From Actinophytocola algeriensis (lineage in GTDB: Bacteria > Actinomycetota > Actinomycetes > Mycobacteriales > Pseudonocardiaceae): a stretch of 64,000 nt of DNA. Every line of letters starts with the position of its first letter. Positions within the stretch are counted from its first letter, which is position 1. The stretch is from assembly GCF_014203735.1 (NCBI RefSeq), contig NZ_JACHJQ010000009.1, positions 310,001 to 374,000 of the forward strand, written 5' to 3'. Under the pieces are notes generated by a model. The model saw nothing but the letters and a program-made list of their open reading frames with translations, was not told where the DNA came from and made no database searches. Positions 7,447 to 63,823 of this stretch are shown in pieces. Position numbers and translations under genes: made by a program.

Positions 7447-7494
7447 CGGCTGGCCTCCGGCCCCCTCGAACCACGCTACGGCACGGCACCGACA
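7447..7494 (-). repeat. PafBC-type promoter motif with GGCCGGAGGCC tail, copy 1
   Basis: On the minus strand TGTCGGTG (7487-7494) is followed after exactly 8 bp by TAGCGT (7473-7478) and then by GGGGGCCGGAGGCC (down to about 7453). The same arrangement recurs at 15416 (plus) and 36722 (minus). The motif matches the RecA-independent DNA-damage promoter consensus of mycobacteria. No gene lies in a position to be transcribed from it: leftward it runs into the 3' end of truA. The rest of the 386-bp gap (7291-7676) holds a DnaA-box pair and the protease terminator. Confidence 0.6.
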
Positions 7495-7518
7495 GCAACG
7501 GGTCGCTGAGCCCCGCCC

Positions 7519-7546
7519 TGTGGACAACCAGCCCACCTGTGGACAA
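7519..7546 (-). other. Pair of DnaA-box-like 9-mers, 19 bp apart
   Basis: TGTGGACAA occurs at 7519-7527 and 7538-7546; on the minus strand this is TTGTCCACA, the high-GC actinomycete DnaA box. The 19-bp period is the same as in the dispersed elements at 24.9, 36.7 and 46.6 kb, but the conserved 50-bp core of those elements is absent here. Confidence 0.6.
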
Positions 7547-7628
7547 CCGCCCTCGGAGCCGACGGGAGTGTCGGTGGTCCGTGCGAGGCTTGAACCGGGG
7601 GCCGGAGGCCAGAGGCCACACGTGGAAC

Positions 7629-15415: not shown

Positions 15416-15464
15416 TGTCGGTGCCGCTGCCTAGGCTGGATCCCGGGGCCGGAGGCCGCCGGGG
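15416..15464 (+). repeat. PafBC-type promoter motif with GGCCGGAGGCC tail, copy 2
   Basis: TGTCGGTG (15416-15423), 8 bp, TAGGCT (15432-15437), then CGGGGCCGGAGGCCGCCGGGG. Same order as at 7.5 and 36.7 kb. No sense gene begins downstream; it points against the 3' end of the small membrane protein gene at 15499-15624, so an antisense RNA is possible. Confidence 0.55.
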
Positions 15465-21541: not shown

Positions 21542-21563
21542 TGTCGGTGGTGTCCTCTACCGT
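21542..21563 (+). promoter_or_regulatory. PafBC-type DNA-damage promoter of the RecB-type nuclease gene
   Basis: TGTCGGTG (21542-21549), exactly 8 bp, TACCGT (21558-21563), and the GTG start at 21570 just where transcription should begin. The motif equals the TTGTCRGTG-N8-TANNNT consensus of mycobacterial RecA-independent damage promoters. A leaderless transcript is implied. Confidence 0.7.
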
Positions 21564-21569
21564 GGCACC

Positions 21570-22403
21570 GTGCAACTCGGGTTCGACGCCATGCCGCGCA
21601 GGCTCATCAAAGTCACCCCCTCCCGGCTCTCCACCTGGGTGGACTGTCCGCGCCGTTTTCGCATGGCCTACCTCGACCGGCCCACGCCGCCGCGGGGCGG
21701 GGCGTGGGCGCACAGCACGCTGGGTGCGGTGGTGCACAACGCTTTGCGCGCCTTCTTCGACCTGCCCGTCGCCAAGCGCACGCCCGAAGCGGCGGTCGCG
21801 CTCGTCGGGCAGCACTGGAGCGACGAAGGGTTCGCCGGGCCCACGCAGGCCGCGGAGTACCGGACCCGTGCCGCGGGCTGGGTCGCCGACTACGTGGCCG
21901 AGAACGACGTCTCGATGGACCCCGTCGGGCTGGAGCGGTGGGTGTCGGCACCCGTCGGCACGATCGTCGCCGAGGGGCGGGTCGACCGGATCGACGAGCG
22001 GGACGGCGAGGTCGTCATCATCGACTACAAGACCGGGCGGTCCGCGCTGACCACCGACGACGCGCGGTCGTCGCAGGCGCTGGCGCTCTACGTGCTGGCG
22101 GCCCGGCGGACGTTGCGCAGGCCGTGCACCCGCGTCGAGCTGCACCACCTGCCGACCGGCACGGTCGCGGCGTGGGAGCACACCGAGGAGTCCCTCACCC
22201 GGCACCGCACGCGGGCCGAGGAGGCGGCGGAGGAGTTCCACCTCGCCACGGACACCCTCAACGCAGGCGGTGACCCGGACGTGCTGTTCCCCGCGCAGGT
22301 CGGCCGCCAGTGCTCCTGGTGCGACTTCCGCCGCAGCTGCCAGGAAGGCCAGGCGGCCGGGCCCGCGATGGAGTCCTGGGCGATGCTCGCGCCGTTGGGT
22401 TAG
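21570..22403 (+). CDS. RecB-type PD-(D/E)XK nuclease with four-cysteine iron-sulfur site
   Basis: 277 residues. The nuclease core shows EGRVDRIDERDGEVVIIDYKTG, with the metal-binding Asp and the DYK triad. One cysteine near the start (DCPRRFRM) and three near the end (QCSWCDFRRSCQ) form the AddB/Dna2-type iron-sulfur clasp. No helicase domain is present, so it is a stand-alone nuclease, like Cas4-sized proteins. The damage-type promoter upstream supports a role in DNA repair. Confidence 0.88.
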   Translation: MQLGFDAMPRRLIKVTPSRLSTWVDCPRRFRMAYLDRPTPPRGGAWAHSTLGAVVHNALRAFFDLPVAKRTPEAAVALVGQHWSDEGFAGPTQAAEYRTRAAGWVADYVAENDVSMDPVGLERWVSAPVGTIVAEGRVDRIDERDGEVVIIDYKTGRSALTTDDARSSQALALYVLAARRTLRRPCTRVELHHLPTGTVAAWEHTEESLTRHRTRAEEAAEEFHLATDTLNAGGDPDVLFPAQVGRQCSWCDFRRSCQEGQAAGPAMESWAMLAPLG

Positions 22404-24778: not shown

Positions 24779-24893
24779 GGATGCCAAACCCCACCCTGTC
24801 CCGGGGGCGTCCCGCCTTGCCAGTCTATCAGTTATCGCCGATTACACAAGGTGTGTGGGGCCAACTGTGGACAACTCGCCCTGCTGTGGATAA
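24779..24893 (-). repeat. Dispersed DnaA-box element, copy A
   Basis: On the minus strand: TTATCCACA (24893-24885), 10 bp, TTGTCCACA (24874-24866), then 44 bp from box to core TGATAGACTGGCAAGG (starting 24830) and the GGGACGCCCCCGGG part, ending near 24779. The outer box lies one base from the stop codon of the Rv3212-type gene. The element fills most of the 220-bp gap. Confidence 0.85.
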
Positions 24894-24894
24894 C

Positions 24895-26274
24895 TCAGCG
24901 GAGCGCGACCAGTGTGTCGCCGCGCTGTTCGAAGACCATCGGGCCCGAGGCCGACATGGTGATCTCGCCGTCGTAGCCCTCGCGGTCCAGCGGGGTCGTC
25001 GCCACGATCTCGCCCGTAGCCGGGTTCAGGACCTCGATCGCGCCCTTGACCGGGACCAGGATCTTCCCCGCGAACGCGGTGCCGGGGCCCATGGCGTCGT
25101 CGATTGTCCACAGTGGACGTAGGTCGTCCAGGGACAGGGCGATCGTGCGCGAGCCGGTGAACCAGTAGACGGCGCCGGTCACGCGGTTCACCGACATCAC
25201 GTGGTCCGCCGGGTCGCCGCGCAGGTCGCCCGGGCCGATGTCCAGGGGGTACGACCGGATCTGGCTGCCCTTCTCGTTCAGCAGCACCAGCCGGTTCGGG
25301 TTCGGCAGCGCCACCGCGGTGCACTGCTGCACCTCGTCCGGTTGGGAGGCGTCCAGCCGGCACTGCTCGCTCATGGCGACGACCTTGGCGCCGTTGCCGA
25401 CCACGACGCTGGACACGACCACCGGCTTCTCGGAGTCGTCCTCGCCGGTCGCCTTGTAGACCGTCACCCGGTCGCCCGGGTCCGTCGGGCAGCGTTCCAC
25501 CACCGCGATCTTGCCGGTGACCACCGCGGTCGTGCCGTACTCGCAGCCGTTCCTCGGCTGCTTGTCCGGGTTCTGGATCGCGCCGACCTTGCCGTACTCC
25601 ATGGTCAGCACCAGGTCGGACCGCCACGTCGTCAGCAGGTGCGCGCCGGTCGTCGTCAGGTACGTGCCGTCCGACAGCAGCCGGGTGCCCAGCTCCGCGT
25701 CGGAGTTGCGGGTGCCCAGGTACGGGCTGTCGCGCTGCTCGTCCTGGCGAGCGGGGCGGCCGCGCTGACCGGTTTCCGGCCACAGCGCGGTGACCTCGCT
25801 GCAGCCACCCGCCTTGCGCGGGTCGCCGTCGGGCAGGAGGTTGTCCTTCTTCGCGTACACGGCGATCGCCAGCTGCCACGCCGACGACACCGTGCACAGC
25901 GGCAGGTCGCGGTTGTAGCGCCAGCGGACGTCACCGGTGAGCGGGTCGCGGCCGGCCACCTCGCCGCCGTTGCCGGTCACCACGGCCGGGCCGACCGTCA
26001 CCGGCTCCGGGGTCGCGGGCGACCGGGCACGCCACACCTCGGCGAGCGACGGCGGGAACACCGGCGGCCGGGCGGGTGAGGTCATCGGCGAGCCGGCAGT
26101 CTCGGACGTGGTCGCGCGGATGTCGCTGGACTGCCACAGGAGCAGCCCGCCGACCAGTGCGGCCACCGCGATGACCGCCGCGACGAGGACGTCGCGCTTG
26201 CGGTGGAACCTGGTCCGTTCCCAGCGCTCGACGGGATTGTCCGTCCCGTCGAGCACGTCCTCGTCGCCAATCAT
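24895..26274 (-). CDS. Rv3212-type membrane-anchored beta-propeller protein
   Basis: 459 residues. A short cytoplasmic start with IGDEDVLDGTDNPVERWERTRFHRKRD precedes one membrane helix (about 30-48, VLVAAVIAVAALVGGLLLW) and an extracellular PQQ-type beta-propeller with repeated VTGxVxW-like blades and four or more cysteines. Position directly behind the RhlE helicase gene matches M. tuberculosis Rv3211-Rv3212. Function unproven. Confidence 0.8.
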   Translation of the reverse strand: MIGDEDVLDGTDNPVERWERTRFHRKRDVLVAAVIAVAALVGGLLLWQSSDIRATTSETAGSPMTSPARPPVFPPSLAEVWRARSPATPEPVTVGPAVVTGNGGEVAGRDPLTGDVRWRYNRDLPLCTVSSAWQLAIAVYAKKDNLLPDGDPRKAGGCSEVTALWPETGQRGRPARQDEQRDSPYLGTRNSDAELGTRLLSDGTYLTTTGAHLLTTWRSDLVLTMEYGKVGAIQNPDKQPRNGCEYGTTAVVTGKIAVVERCPTDPGDRVTVYKATGEDDSEKPVVVSSVVVGNGAKVVAMSEQCRLDASQPDEVQQCTAVALPNPNRLVLLNEKGSQIRSYPLDIGPGDLRGDPADHVMSVNRVTGAVYWFTGSRTIALSLDDLRPLWTIDDAMGPGTAFAGKILVPVKGAIEVLNPATGEIVATTPLDREGYDGEITMSASGPMVFEQRGDTLVALR

Positions 26275-29284: not shown

Positions 29285-29348
29285 GTGAGCTTCGACGAAG
29301 GGCAGGGCCGTCCGGTCCTGCCCTTCTGCGTCTCGTCCCCGGCAGTGC

Positions 29349-30065
29349 TCAGCCCGCGTTCGGGTGCGCCTCGGAGAGCTTCACGACCCGGTTCAGCTCC
29401 AGCGGCTTGTTCGGGTCGAGCGTGACGCCGTTCGCCCTGGTGAAGCCGTCGATCGCGGCCCAGATGATCTGGGTCAGGTACTCGACCACCGCGTCGCGGC
29501 TCATGGTGCGGCGCTCCAGCCACCACTCGCTGACGTTCTGGACCATCCCGACGATGCCGTGCGCCCACGGCTCCGCCGCGCCGGAGTCCATGTTCATCGC
29601 ACGCAGGTAGTCGCCGAGCAGGGCGGACAGGGCCTGCGCGATCAGCTCCTTGTCCTCCGCGACGATGTCCTGCTCGACCGGCCGGTTCGCGAGCGAGCGG
29701 CGGACCAGCAGGCGGTACAGGTGCGGGTACTCCTCGACGGTGGAGAAGAACGCGTCGAGGCTCTTGCGGATGCGCGGGACCGGGGCTTCCTCGTTGTTGA
29801 GCGCCGGGATGAGCCGGTCGAAGAGGATCTCGGTGCCGCGGTGCCCCAGTGCGACGAACAGGTCGGCCTTGTCGGCGAAGTGGCGGTACAGGACGGGTTT
29901 CGTGACACCCGCCTCGGCGGCGATGTGGTCCATGCCGACGTCCGGGCCGTGTTCCGCCAGCGCCCGCATGGCCGCCTCGACGAACTCCGCTCGCCGTGCT
30001 GCCCGGTGGGAGCGCCAGCGGTCCCGTCTCGCGTCACCTGTCGCGTTGCCGGTTGCTTCTGGCAT
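29349..30065 (-). CDS. TetR-family regulator
   Basis: 238 residues. HTH region GMDHIAAEAGVTKPVLYRHFADKADLF at about 43-69; long C-terminal domain with NVSEWWLERRTMSRDA. It lies behind the next TetR gene on the same strand (25 bp), a pair of tandem regulators. The ligand is unknown. Possibly a membrane-lipid regulator, by similarity of the ligand domain to other large TetRs, but with low certainty. Confidence 0.85.
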   Translation of the reverse strand: MPEATGNATGDARRDRWRSHRAARRAEFVEAAMRALAEHGPDVGMDHIAAEAGVTKPVLYRHFADKADLFVALGHRGTEILFDRLIPALNNEEAPVPRIRKSLDAFFSTVEEYPHLYRLLVRRSLANRPVEQDIVAEDKELIAQALSALLGDYLRAMNMDSGAAEPWAHGIVGMVQNVSEWWLERRTMSRDAVVEYLTQIIWAAIDGFTRANGVTLDPNKPLELNRVVKLSEAHPNAG

Positions 30066-35686: not shown

Positions 35687-36673
35687 ATGCCGGCGATCAC
35701 CGCGGACACGCTGACCCTGCCCCGTCTTTCCGTGCCTGCCGACCCGGCCTGGCGCGAGCCGTACAAGGTGGTGACGGCGCAGAAGTTCCTGGAGGGCGAG
35801 GGTTTCCAGGTGCGCCGCCCGTTCCCCGGCGTCGACCTGGCGCTGGCGGACCCGTTCCTGCTGCTGGACCACATGGGTGCCGTCGAGTACGGCCCCGGTG
35901 AGGCGAAGGGTGCCCCGTGGCACCCGCACCGCGGCTTCGAGACGGTGACCTACATGATCGACGGCGCCTTCCAGCACACCGACTCGATCGGCGGCGGCGG
36001 TCTCATCACCGACGGCGCCACGCAGTGGATGACCGCCGGGGCCGGGATCCTGCACAACGAGGTGCCCCCGCAGGAGATGGTCGCCCGCGGCGGCCTCTTC
36101 CACGGTGTGCAGCTGTGGGTCAACCTGCCGCGCGCGCTGAAGATGACCACGCCCCGCTACCAGGACATCCAGGCGACCGACGCCGCGCTGCTGTCGAGCG
36201 AGGACGGCGGCGCGCTAGTCCGCGTCATCGCGGGCTCGCTGGACGGCCACGACGGTCCCGGTGCGACGCACTCGCCGATCACGTACCTGCACGCGACGGT
36301 CAGTGCGGGTGCCCGGCTCGCGATGCCATGGCCCGCGGACTACAACGCGCTCGTGTACGTGCTGTCCGGCCGCGGCACGGTGGGTGCCGGCAGGCCCCTT
36401 GAGGAAGGTCAGCTGGCCGTCTTCGGCCTGGGCGACGCGTTGTCGGTGCGGGCGGCGGACACGCAACCGGCGAACTCGCCGACGGGGTGGGAGATCCTCG
36501 TGCTGGGCGGTGCGCCGATCAACGAGCCGGTGGCCAGGTACGGCCCGTTCGTGATGAACACCCGCGAGGAGATCGTCCAGGCTTTCGAGGACTTCCAGGC
36601 CGGGCGGCTGGACCAGATCCCGGCGGAACACCTGGCACACCGCACGACCGCGGACGACAAGCTGGTGGAGTGA
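35687..36673 (+). CDS. Pirin-family cupin protein
   Basis: 328 residues from ATG 35687 with CAGGAGG upstream. The N-terminal cupin has the metal site PWHPHRGFETVTYMIDG plus QWMTAGAGILHNE (three His and one Glu), as in pirins with quercetinase activity. A second cupin follows. The C-terminus (FVMNTREEIVQAFEDFQAGRLDQIP) is typical. A strong hairpin ends the gene. Confidence 0.93.
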   Translation: MPAITADTLTLPRLSVPADPAWREPYKVVTAQKFLEGEGFQVRRPFPGVDLALADPFLLLDHMGAVEYGPGEAKGAPWHPHRGFETVTYMIDGAFQHTDSIGGGGLITDGATQWMTAGAGILHNEVPPQEMVARGGLFHGVQLWVNLPRALKMTTPRYQDIQATDAALLSSEDGGALVRVIAGSLDGHDGPGATHSPITYLHATVSAGARLAMPWPADYNALVYVLSGRGTVGAGRPLEEGQLAVFGLGDALSVRAADTQPANSPTGWEILVLGGAPINEPVARYGPFVMNTREEIVQAFEDFQAGRLDQIPAEHLAHRTTADDKLVE

Positions 36674-36692
36674 GGGGCCGGCCTCCGGCCCC
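36674..36692 (+). terminator. Terminator hairpin of the pirin gene
   Basis: GGGGCCGG (36674-36681) and CCGGCCCC (36685-36692) form a perfect 8-bp stem with a CCT loop, beginning directly after the stop codon. The hairpin is also the GGCCGGAGGCC tail of the minus-strand repeat at 36722. Confidence 0.7.
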
Positions 36693-36722
36693 CGGTCACC
36701 ACGCTACGGCACCCCACCGACA
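36675..36722 (-). repeat. PafBC-type promoter motif with GGCCGGAGGCC tail, copy 3
   Basis: Minus strand: TGTCGGTG (36722-36715), 8 bp, TAGCGT (36706-36701), then GGGGGCCGGAGGCCGGCCCC. As at 7.5 kb it points into the 3' end of a plus-strand gene and stands next to a DnaA-box pair. Any transcript would be antisense to pirin. Confidence 0.6.
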
Positions 36723-36744
36723 ACGTGACCTGCGAGGACGTCGG

Positions 36745-36861
36745 TTATCCACAGCAGGGTGAGTTATCCACAATCGGGCTCGCGTGCGTGACATCGCCGC
36801 CCTCCACTGATAGACTGGCATGGCGGGACGCCCCCGGGTCAGGGTGGGGGTTGCGTTCCGG
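36745..36861 (+). repeat. Dispersed DnaA-box element, copy B
   Basis: TTATCCACA at 36745-36753 and 36764-36772 (19-bp period), core TGATAGACTGGCATGG from 36808 to about 36861. TAGACT in the core has GTGACA 17 bp upstream (36788-36793), a fair sigma-A promoter. The core differs from the other copies at two A-to-T positions; one of them makes the stop codon of the minus-strand 69-aa ORF. Confidence 0.85.
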
Positions 36862-37048
36862 CTGGTTTGCGGGATTTCGGCCATCGGAGTTTGTGTGGGC
36901 CGGGCTTTCGTGAGGTCTCTCGGCTCCTCGGTTCGCCATGCGCCGGTGCCTCGTTCTTCGGTCTGCTGGACCAGCGGGCCGCCAGCTTTCCCAGCTCGGT
37001 CTCCGTTTCCCGGGTCGGGGGCTGCGTCAGCACGGTCGGGACGTACAT
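36839..37048 (-). CDS. 69-residue protein divergent from the ECF42 operon
   Basis: ATG 37048 has an excellent AAAGGAGAGGAG site and a predicted ECF42-type promoter (-35 TGTCGA at 37098-37093, -10 CGTC at 37076-37073). The peptide starts MYVPTVLTQPPTRETETELG, has GKLAARWSSRPK, and an Arg/Lys/Pro-rich tail. Codon bias is strongly coding up to about residue 35 and weaker after that, where the reading frame approaches and finally enters the repeat element. Its original end may have been altered by the repeat. No family recognised. Confidence 0.6.
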   Translation of the reverse strand: MYVPTVLTQPPTRETETELGKLAARWSSRPKNEAPAHGEPRSRETSRKPGPHKLRWPKSRKPAGTQPPP

Positions 37049-46578: not shown

Positions 46579-46701
46579 TTGTCCACAGCCGATGCGGTTG
46601 TCCACAGGCAAGATCGACAACGCCCGCACTGTCGGGGGGTACCGGTAAGCTGGCAAGGCGGGACGCCCCCGGGACAGGGTGGGGGTTGCTTTCCGGCCGG
46701 G
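46579..46701 (+). repeat. Dispersed DnaA-box element, copy C
   Basis: TTGTCCACA at 46579-46587 and 46598-46606 (19-bp period), then 45 bp from the second box to the core (from 46643, GGTAAGCTGGCAAGGCGGG) ending near 46701. The -10-like hexamer is TAAGCT instead of TAGACT. The remaining bases of the 351-bp gap (46514-46864) hold nothing I can assign. Confidence 0.85.
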
Positions 46702-58153: not shown

Positions 58154-58175
58154 TGTCGGTGGGGCCACGTAGGCT
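58154..58175 (+). promoter_or_regulatory. PafBC-type promoter of the M16 peptidase operon
   Basis: TGTCGGTG (58154-58161), 8 bp, TAGGCT (58170-58175), ATG six bases later at 58182. Same geometry as at 21542. It implies a leaderless, DNA-damage-inducible transcript of the M16-M16-nudC operon. Confidence 0.7.
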
Positions 58176-58181
58176 GCGGAC

Positions 58182-59465
58182 ATGCCAGGAAACGAGCTGA
58201 CCCGGTTCACGCTTCCCAACGGTCTGCGCGTGGTGCTCGCCCCCGATCCGACGGCACCGGTCGTGGGCGTCAGCGTGCACTACGACGTGGGGTTCCGCTC
58301 CGAGCCGGAGGGCCGAACGGGCTTCGCGCACCTCTTCGAGCACCTCATGTTCCAGGGCAGCGAGAGCCTCGAGAAGCTCGCCCACTTCCGGCACGTCCAG
58401 TCCTCCGGCGGCACGTTCAACGGCTCGACGCACCCCGACTACACCGACTACTTCGAGGTGCTGCCGTCCGCCGGGCTAGAGCGGGCGCTGTTCCTCGAGG
58501 CCGACCGCATGCGGGCGCCGAAGATCACCGCGGAGAACCTGGCGAACCAGATCGACGTGGTCAAGGAAGAGATCCGGCTGAACGTGCTGAACCGGCCGTA
58601 CGGCGGGTTCCCGTGGATCCTGCTGCCGCCGGTGCTGTACCAGACGTTCCCCAACGCCCACAACGGTTACGGCGACTTCACCGAGCTGGAGTCGGCGAAC
58701 CTGGACGACTGCGCGCAGTTCTTCGACACCTACTACGCGCCCGCCAACGCGGTGCTGACGGTCGCCGGGGACCTCGACGTCGAGCGGACCAGGGACCTGA
58801 TCGACAGGCACTTCGGCGACGTGCCCGCGCGCTCCGCGCCGGACCGCCCGTCGTTCGGTGAGCCGAGGCCCGCCGGTCAGCTGGAGTCCGAGCACGTCGA
58901 CCCGCACGCGCCGCTGCCCGCGCTCGCGATCGGCTACCGCATGCCGGACCCGATCGCCGAACTGGACGGCTACCTCGCGAACCTGGTGCTCGCGTCGGTG
59001 CTCACGGAAGGTGACGCGTCCCGGCTGCAGCAGCGCCTGGTGCTGCGCGAGCCGCTGGTCACCGACGTCAACGCGGCCTGCGGCCTGTTCGGCCCGTTCG
59101 AGGCACGCGACCCGGACACGTTCACGATCACGGCCGTGCACTCACCGGACGTCACCCAGGACCGGGTGCTCGCCGCGGTCGACGACGAGCTGGAGAAGCT
59201 CGCCACGACCGCGCCGTCCGACCAGGAGCTGGCGAAGGTGGTCGCACGCTGGGTCGCGGGCCTGCACCGCGAGCACGACCGGTTGGTGTCCCGCACGCTC
59301 GCACTCGGCTCGTTCGAGCTGCTCTACGGCGACCCCGGTCTCGTGTACCAGCTCACCGACCGGCTGTCGGCGGTCACGCCGGACGCCGTGTCCGCCGCCG
59401 CCAAGGGATTGCGCCCCGACTCGCGCGCGGTCCTGATCGTGTCGCCCGCAGGAGGAGAGAAGTGA
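58182..59465 (+). CDS. M16-family zinc peptidase, catalytic subunit
   Basis: 427 residues. The inverted zinc motif HLFEH at 50-54 with the distal Glu in KEEIR marks the active M16 half; the second half (from about 220) lacks it. Typical of heterodimeric bacterial M16B peptidases related to mitochondrial processing peptidase. No signal peptide, so cytoplasmic. It is overlapped by the second M16 gene (four bases), which supplies the partner. Confidence 0.93.
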   Translation: MPGNELTRFTLPNGLRVVLAPDPTAPVVGVSVHYDVGFRSEPEGRTGFAHLFEHLMFQGSESLEKLAHFRHVQSSGGTFNGSTHPDYTDYFEVLPSAGLERALFLEADRMRAPKITAENLANQIDVVKEEIRLNVLNRPYGGFPWILLPPVLYQTFPNAHNGYGDFTELESANLDDCAQFFDTYYAPANAVLTVAGDLDVERTRDLIDRHFGDVPARSAPDRPSFGEPRPAGQLESEHVDPHAPLPALAIGYRMPDPIAELDGYLANLVLASVLTEGDASRLQQRLVLREPLVTDVNAACGLFGPFEARDPDTFTITAVHSPDVTQDRVLAAVDDELEKLATTAPSDQELAKVVARWVAGLHREHDRLVSRTLALGSFELLYGDPGLVYQLTDRLSAVTPDAVSAAAKGLRPDSRAVLIVSPAGGEK

Positions 59466-63723: not shown

Positions 63724-63823
63724 TTATCCACAGCTGGACCCATGGGGCTGGCTTCGAAAGCCACCCACTGATAGACTGGCAAGGCGGGACGCCCCCGGGA
63801 CAGGGTGGGGGTTGGCATCCGGC
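63724..63823 (+). repeat. Dispersed DnaA-box element, copy D
   Basis: One box TTATCCACA at 63724-63732; the partner 19 bp away has decayed (ATGGGGCTG). Core TGATAGACTGGCAAGG begins 45 bp after the box, at 63769, and runs to about 63823. The remaining bases up to 63903 hold nothing assignable. Confidence 0.85.

Follow-up and report, generated by a model that had tools for sequence, protein, structure and literature searches.

A pair of DnaA-type boxes 19 bp apart, located 38-40 bp upstream of a putative -10 hexamer, probably serves as the operator of a promoter unit that belongs to a DNA-uptake and repair regulon in Actinophytocola algeriensis. We assign the unit to such a regulon because the same operator and spacing recur in front of DNA-uptake, Tad-pilus, and related genes across the Pseudonocardiaceae and also in front of the organism's own recA, which would imply co-regulation. 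A protein bound to both boxes, most likely DnaA, would activate RNA polymerase. In many units the predicted -10 would double as the PafBC motif and confer induction by DNA damage, and the units with this motif would also answer to single-stranded DNA. The dispersed units would start a short noncoding RNA on a GC hairpin, mostly in intergenic regions, with convergent gene ends as the most frequent location.

The window, a stretch of 64,000 nt (G000:C9:310001-374000) of the 9.73-Mb genome, harbors four copies of this element with a conserved core. The copy at 36745 consists of DnaA box 1 (36745..36753, TTATCCACA), an identical box 2 at a distance of 19 bp (36764..36772, TTATCCACA), the hexamer TAGACT (36811..36816), which follows box 2 at a distance of 38 bp, a GGCG-GGA-CGCC hairpin (36822..36832), at which the RNA is predicted to start by analogy with leaderless genes, and the G-tracts GGG-TCA-GGG-T-GGGGG (36836..36850), which close the strongly conserved payload. 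All these features are on the plus strand. The copy forms the rightward, core-type half of a divergent unit, while the leftward half on the minus strand (36680-36722), not noted in the first-pass annotation, is of a second type, type B. The latter comprises the PafBC-type promoter motif TGTCGGTG-N8-TAGCGT (36701..36722, with the motif as given in the consulted part of PMC5656591) and the hairpin payload GGGGGCCGGAGGCC (36680..36693), located a few bases beyond the stop codon of a pirin gene that is encoded on the other strand and ends at 36673. The second copy (24804..24893, minus strand) has boxes at 24885-24893 and 24866-24874 and a core at 24804-24827; its box 1 is separated by one base from the stop codon of the gene at 24895-26274. 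The third copy (46579..46701, plus strand), with boxes at 46579 and 46598 and a core at 46646-46669, includes a PafBC-like TGTCGGGG-N8-TAAGCT (46630-46651, plus strand). The fourth (63724..63823, plus strand) has its core at 63772-63795. The first-pass annotation of this DNA had described one shared plan for the four copies; all four are indeed present, but the fourth has a single box (63724-63732). A further type-B unit is found on the minus strand at 7452..7610, with boxes at 7538-7546 and 7519-7527, the promoter motif at 7473-7494, and the hairpin at 7452-7465. An inverted hairpin (7597-7610) is present on its far side, and convergent genes flank the unit.

The genome-wide search for core and boxes that the annotation had suggested confirmed their association. 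With up to 3 mismatches, the core pattern TARACTGGCANGGCGGGACGCCCC was found 54 times in the genome and the reversed pattern, used as a control, not at all. In all 54 copies the TANNNT hexamer was preceded by a DnaA box (box 2; one mismatch or none), and in 48 of them box 1 (at most one mismatch) was present exactly 19 bp further upstream, while six units lacked box 1. The counted boxes contained four mismatches, all of them at box positions 1-2. Counted from its end, box 2 was 38 bp away from the hexamer in 27 units and 39 bp away in the other 27. The gap of 44-45 bp originally reported is therefore fixed as claimed, but that value counts from box start to core start. The view that this geometry is functional, with control exerted through the boxes, is backed by the fixed distances. 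The gap sequences had been considered unrelated; they are in fact related, with a mean pairwise identity of 0.46 as compared to 0.28 for shuffled gaps. Hundreds of copies per genome had been expected, but 54 core copies were counted, and they are unevenly distributed along the genome: 46 are located in five contigs that represent 35% of it (the binomial p of 4e-14 is overstated, as the contigs were chosen after the counts had been seen).

The hexamer itself, initially taken as an invariant TAGACT, occurred in six forms (TAGACT 37, TAAGCT 9, TAGAAT 4, TAAGAT 2, TAAACT 1, and TAGCCT 1), and TAAGCT is the form in the copy at 46579. Variation was confined to positions 3-5, and TA...T was kept in all 54 core units. 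Since only positions 3-5 vary, the hexamer resembles a -10. The preceding triplet was TGG in 24 units, CGG in 15, TGA in 9, CGA in 5, and TAG in 1. As a sequence pattern, the interpretation of TAGACT as the -10 of a promoter is strongly supported by the fixed distance, by the conserved TANNNT with its varying middle, and by the equal distance before the starts of protein genes.

Box pairs also occur without the core. The genome contains 102 pairs of the form TTRTCCACA-N10-TTRTCCACA versus 0 in the control, and among the 100 listed pair sites 46 were near a core and 54 away from cores. Contig C3 (1.137 Mb) was analysed as a whole for boxes, pairs, and motif spacing. It harbors 29 same-strand pairs with the 19-bp distance, while any other same-strand spacing up to 150 bp was observed at most once. 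At L052 (G000:C14, about 33300), tandem boxes at 19-bp steps form three overlapping pairs in front of one core unit. The high number of exact boxes in C3 (95 in 1.14 Mb, versus 2-8 expected from five first-order Markov sequences) would suit sites for DnaA titration or reset like datA and DARS. We consider this function, which the annotation had offered as an alternative for datA-like titration, highly improbable, as the boxes keep a single distance to the -10 hexamers and are placed before genes, and specific support for titration did not extend beyond the boxes themselves. Like the units described here, datA and DARS are non-coding chromosomal loci with DnaA boxes, but they are few in E. coli and consist of a dense box cluster with IHF/Fis-type sites, in contrast to about a hundred two-box promoter units in this genome and mostly two boxes per unit among the 54 core units.

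The DnaA domain is encoded in C3 at 448451-448936. The box TTGTCCACA is present at 449670 and 449805 and TTATCCACA at 453417, and from dnaA and these boxes oriC is presumed to lie in C3. Both box forms of the pairs are identical in letters to boxes of the own dnaA region, and because of this identity we infer that DnaA is the likely binder of the pairs, with somewhat lower confidence than we have in the promoter unit as such. No 19-bp pair was found in the 2.9 kb examined around dnaA, so that the regulator could also be a protein other than DnaA. A dedicated competence regulator might read the DnaA 9-mer, with DnaA bound only incidentally and with operator and promoter unchanged. We regard this as possible, though doubtful. 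Besides the lack of a 19-bp direct repeat in these 2.9 kb, it would fit the narrow distribution of the pair, which was present in 6 of 394 class-level genomes (own genome included), all six from the own order and none from outside, although DnaA is, to our knowledge, nearly universal among bacteria. The presence of both TTGTCCACA and TTATCCACA in the own dnaA region argues against it, as does the placement of the four box mismatches at positions 1-2, where actinobacterial DnaA boxes tolerate changes.

The assignment to DNA uptake and repair depends on the protein genes behind the pair. In the own genome, pairs precede recA, comEA, cpaE/ssd, yraN, a cpaB-like gene, a DUF4192-like gene, a gene for an M23-like peptidase, and one unnamed gene. 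The ComEA, RecA, CpaE/Ssd, and YraN proteins exceeded the NCBIfam cut-off, the CpaB and M23 proteins missed it, and the DUF4192 label is based on likeness to scanned relatives. The own recA has a PafBC motif in addition to the box pair; a box pair ahead of recA was seen in the own genome only. We also inspected one locus each in 30 genomes that have 1-14 pairs and represent 27 genera (two of the genomes being congeners), together with additional loci from G062 (12 of 12), G027 (8 of 10), and the class-level sample (6). Of 38 downstream ORFs, 30 were scanned; the remaining 8 comprised duplicates, unclear cases, and reading frames that run across RNA-type units. Pfam assigned the 30 ORFs to ComEA-type proteins (HHH+SLBB, 3), UPF0102/YraN (3), DUF4192 (3), M23 (3), SAF/RcpC (1), ParA/MinD-like proteins (5), DUF559 (4), and DUF5319 (1), and 7 had no Pfam family. 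The five ParA/MinD-like ORFs are consistent with CpaE, with scores around the cut-off and some below it. One operator is common to comEA, tad, and yraN genes, as expected for a competence/Tad regulon. DUF559 or MTES_1575 nuclease-like proteins were recurrent after the box pair (L299, L300, L305, L306).

To compare gene units and RNA units, the loci L097-L162, L224-L253, and L264-L339 were pooled. Of the resulting 166 distinct pairs, 85 were RNA-type, 46 were gene-type, and 35 were other; on inspection, the last group contains several RNA units as well as genes that have a leader. NANNNT was present 38-40 bp downstream of box 2 in 143 of the 166 pairs. Start codons of the gene-type units, sought at 46-57 bp after box 2, were located at 50-53 bp in 38 of 46 cases and at 51-52 bp in 30. 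The G-runs of the RNA-type hairpins, sought at 46-62 bp, were found at 49-53 bp in 82 of 85 cases. The gene units therefore seem to be leaderless for the most part, and the likely transcription start is marked by their start codons. In the RNA units this start point falls on the first hairpin, which suggests a short RNA that starts at the hairpin.

A short structured RNA that starts at this GC hairpin is plausible, and such a putative RNA would more likely be a small RNA of the regulon than a passenger. The G-tracts of the payload, a conceivable G-quadruplex, are kept while the loops are variable. To judge by eye, a stem seems to be conserved, with arms such as GGCG/CGCC, GGGG/CCCC, and GGGC/GCCC; the MAFFT alignment is misregistered at the first hairpin across types. 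One of five test RNAs folded better than its shuffled versions and four did not. A longer second hairpin that includes the 3' G-run was rejected: the flanks could be swapped without a sign of covariation (-5.07 kcal/mol for the own and -5.26 kcal/mol for the swapped flanks, with C-run boundaries that are not ideal for the core type). A short peptide encoded by the core was likewise rejected, since on reading any frame is broken by payload indels (e.g., L061 and L054). Rfam gave 0 matches in the window at the gathering score, and in 8 loci searched with E up to 1 the three sub-gathering matches (SNORD23, mir-1249, sR53) were chance-like. In streptococci, the csRNAs are several short hairpin RNAs linked to competence. 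The putative RNAs of the units would resemble them as multi-copy short hairpin RNAs tied to competence, but differ in regulator, phylum, and sequence.

The type-B units match a known damage promoter. According to the consulted part of PMC5656591, LexA-independent damage promoters of mycobacteria have the motif tTGTCRgtg-8 nt-TannnT; PMC6789036 states that PafBC acts through this motif, and PMC11804915 that PafBC is activated by single-stranded DNA. Among 55 extracted core-less pairs, 36 showed TGTCRGYS-N8-TANNNT (at most one mismatch in the first 8 letters), in 35 the payload position was occupied by a GGGG(G)CC hairpin, and 33 had both together. A core-like GGGGTGCCCCC payload was present in 3 of the 55, and 15 had neither motif nor hairpin nor core-like payload; pairs of protein genes are among these. 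A loose test detected a PafBC-type motif in about 10 of the 54 core units. The spacing within the motif is strict: in C3, TGTCGGTS-Nk-TANNNT occurred 30 times with k=8 and 0-1 times with any of the remaining k in the range 3 to 13. When one mismatch is allowed, C3 contains 46 PafBC-type motifs, 27 of which have a box within 60 bp upstream. Type-B units are often divergent, and the lay-out of the divergent ones is palindromic. In C3, 10 divergent motif pairs at a distance of up to 200 bp were found, separated by 73-74 bp (7), 84 bp (2), or 63 bp (1), with the boxes located between the motifs; there was no tandem and one convergent motif pair. We conclude that the units with a PafBC motif would be inducible by DNA damage.

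PafBC-type motifs are also found without boxes. Twelve genes behind such motifs were picked by hand (same-strand gene downstream) and ten of them scanned. Five exceeded the cut-off (SSB, DnaX, RadA, a beta-clamp protein, and a TM0106 RecB-like nuclease), one SNF2-type helicase was below it, and four were unrelated to repair. In the window, a box-free TGTCGGTG-N8-TACCGT (21542-21563, plus strand) is located 6 bp ahead of a PD-(D/E)XK nuclease gene (21570-22403), a PafBC-type motif (58154-58175, plus strand) ahead of an M16 peptidase gene (58182-59465), and a type-B motif without boxes but with a CGGGGCCGGAGGCC hairpin (15416-15457, plus strand) between convergent genes. The PafBC / RecA-NDp promoters of Actinobacteria, with the motif taken from the consulted part of PMC5656591, thus have counterparts here in many units and in front of repair genes. 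Compared to those promoters, the units add the 19-bp DnaA-box pair and, if dispersed, a noncoding payload, and 7 of the 10 divergent motif pairs share the 73-74 bp separation.

Regarding their position, 26 of the 54 core units are located between convergent genes, 13 between two opposite-strand genes, 8 between two own-strand genes, and 2 between divergent genes, while 5 are inside a called ORF. The gene calls behind these positions, behind the start codons of the pooled pairs, and behind the window genes relied on home-made GC-frame callers rather than a standard gene finder. In 13 units, a same-strand gene ends at most 12 bases from box 1. This arrangement could indicate two-way terminators or insulators at convergent gene ends, and three counts point in that direction: the 26 convergent locations, the 15 of 28 non-genic C3 pairs that fall into convergent gaps (19% of the intergenic DNA; p 6e-5), and the 9 of 54 core units in which box 1 lies 0-2 bases past the gene end. 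Such a role is nevertheless improbable, since a -10, a PafBC motif, and boxes at a fixed distance are superfluous for termination, and since the junction of unit L278 has a terminator-like hairpin both in the congener G002, with the unit, and in the window, without it.

Beyond the promoter unit itself, we tentatively propose a wider, speculative role: the pair may be the missing competence operator of a large group of Actinomycetota, at which DnaA freed by stalled replication, together with PafBC sensing single-stranded DNA, would switch on DNA uptake, Tad pili, RecA, and about a hundred hairpin-RNA promoters, amplified separately in several genera. Through such a switch, DNA uptake and repair may be coupled to replication. 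If the proposal is true, uptake of DNA would be connected with both the replication initiator and the DNA-damage activator, and the hairpin RNAs of the dispersed promoters would be a small-RNA class of the competence stage. For the actinomycetote model Micrococcus luteus, the upstream signal and regulatory cascade of competence is described as unidentified in the consulted part of PMC12849477 (2026). With its exact spacing, the single operator in front of comEA, Tad genes, yraN, and recA offers a testable answer for the competence switch in Pseudonocardiaceae. As noncoding promoters or small RNAs, the dispersed units would form a new class, with as many as about a hundred copies in one genome. 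DnaA-regulated promoters likewise have DnaA boxes upstream, but the strict direct repeat of two boxes at one distance and the set of DNA-uptake genes set the units apart. Word searches did not find "competence" in the searched text of the DnaA review PMC8203912 or "DnaA" in that of PMC12849477 and PMC8467076, and in the portions of the PMC literature covered we found no report of the 19-bp operator or of the dispersed element.

The exact sequence TAGACTGGCANGGCGGGACGCCCC was found in 12 stretches of named GTDB contigs, all from Actinophytocola oryzae or A. gossypii. The congeners G001, G002, and G004 contain 6, 8, and 8 copies of a similar core pattern; G003 and G005 have none, yet carry related units. 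The pair was present in 47 of 100 relatives (own genome included). A looser RNA-unit pattern (partial single box, 38-40 bp, TANNNTGG, GGGG), which misses the GGCGGG core type, matched in 49 of 120 family genomes, with 4 control matches in total. High numbers were obtained for G000, G003, G006, G024, G034, G035, G075, G544, and others; these counts are inflated by overlapping matches at G-runs of at least 5 G and indicate presence and rough size only. From these patterns the unit is, by our reading, a family-wide kind that has been multiplied in several genera separately. In G544, many matches with the order box, TTGATCATCTTCG-like stretch, TGTCGG, TAGAATGGA, and GGGG represent a further lineage-specific subfamily.

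Orthologous junctions differ in their content. The window junction 29325..29377 is empty, while the corresponding junction in G002 carries the unit L278 directly behind the stop codon. Both genes share the end GCGGGCTGAG; in L278 the first box begins at the end of GCGGGCTGAG, and the terminator-like hairpin beyond the unit is also present in the window. Further cases (C3:456.2k and C3:269.6k) were less clean. The junction at the pirin gene carries a unit of a different subfamily in G002, and no box pair was present at the pirin loci identified in G004 and G005. Other junctions have a unit in both the own genome and G002 (e.g., L067, L036, and L024). The existence of empty orthologous sites implies that units are gained or lost.

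The jumps in copy number from genus to genus, the lineage-specific subfamilies, the empty and filled orthologous sites, and the preference for convergent junctions would also be expected of a selfish, dispersed element of the REP/BIME or MITE kind that inserts copies of itself at gene ends, with the promoter features as passengers or in the service of its spread. We judge this unlikely, since the box/-10 geometry is shared with protein genes, inspection by eye showed no terminal inverted repeats in core units, and window positions 36670-36870 were unmatched in 50,697 phage and 72,556 plasmid records. REP and BIME elements resemble the units in being dispersed and intergenic, with hairpins and often at 3' gene ends, but the units have a conserved promoter and operator. 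One unit can, however, be mobile and a promoter at once.

Across genera, RNA units hardly ever share their positions: only three cross-genus locus pairs (L290/L331, L225/L231, and L010/L308) were found, each with one similar flanking protein; otherwise, shared positions were seen between congeners only. In G006, the loci L235 and L243 contain tandem duplicated units about 200-270 bp apart, with near-identical gaps in L243, which hints at a way in which the units may multiply.
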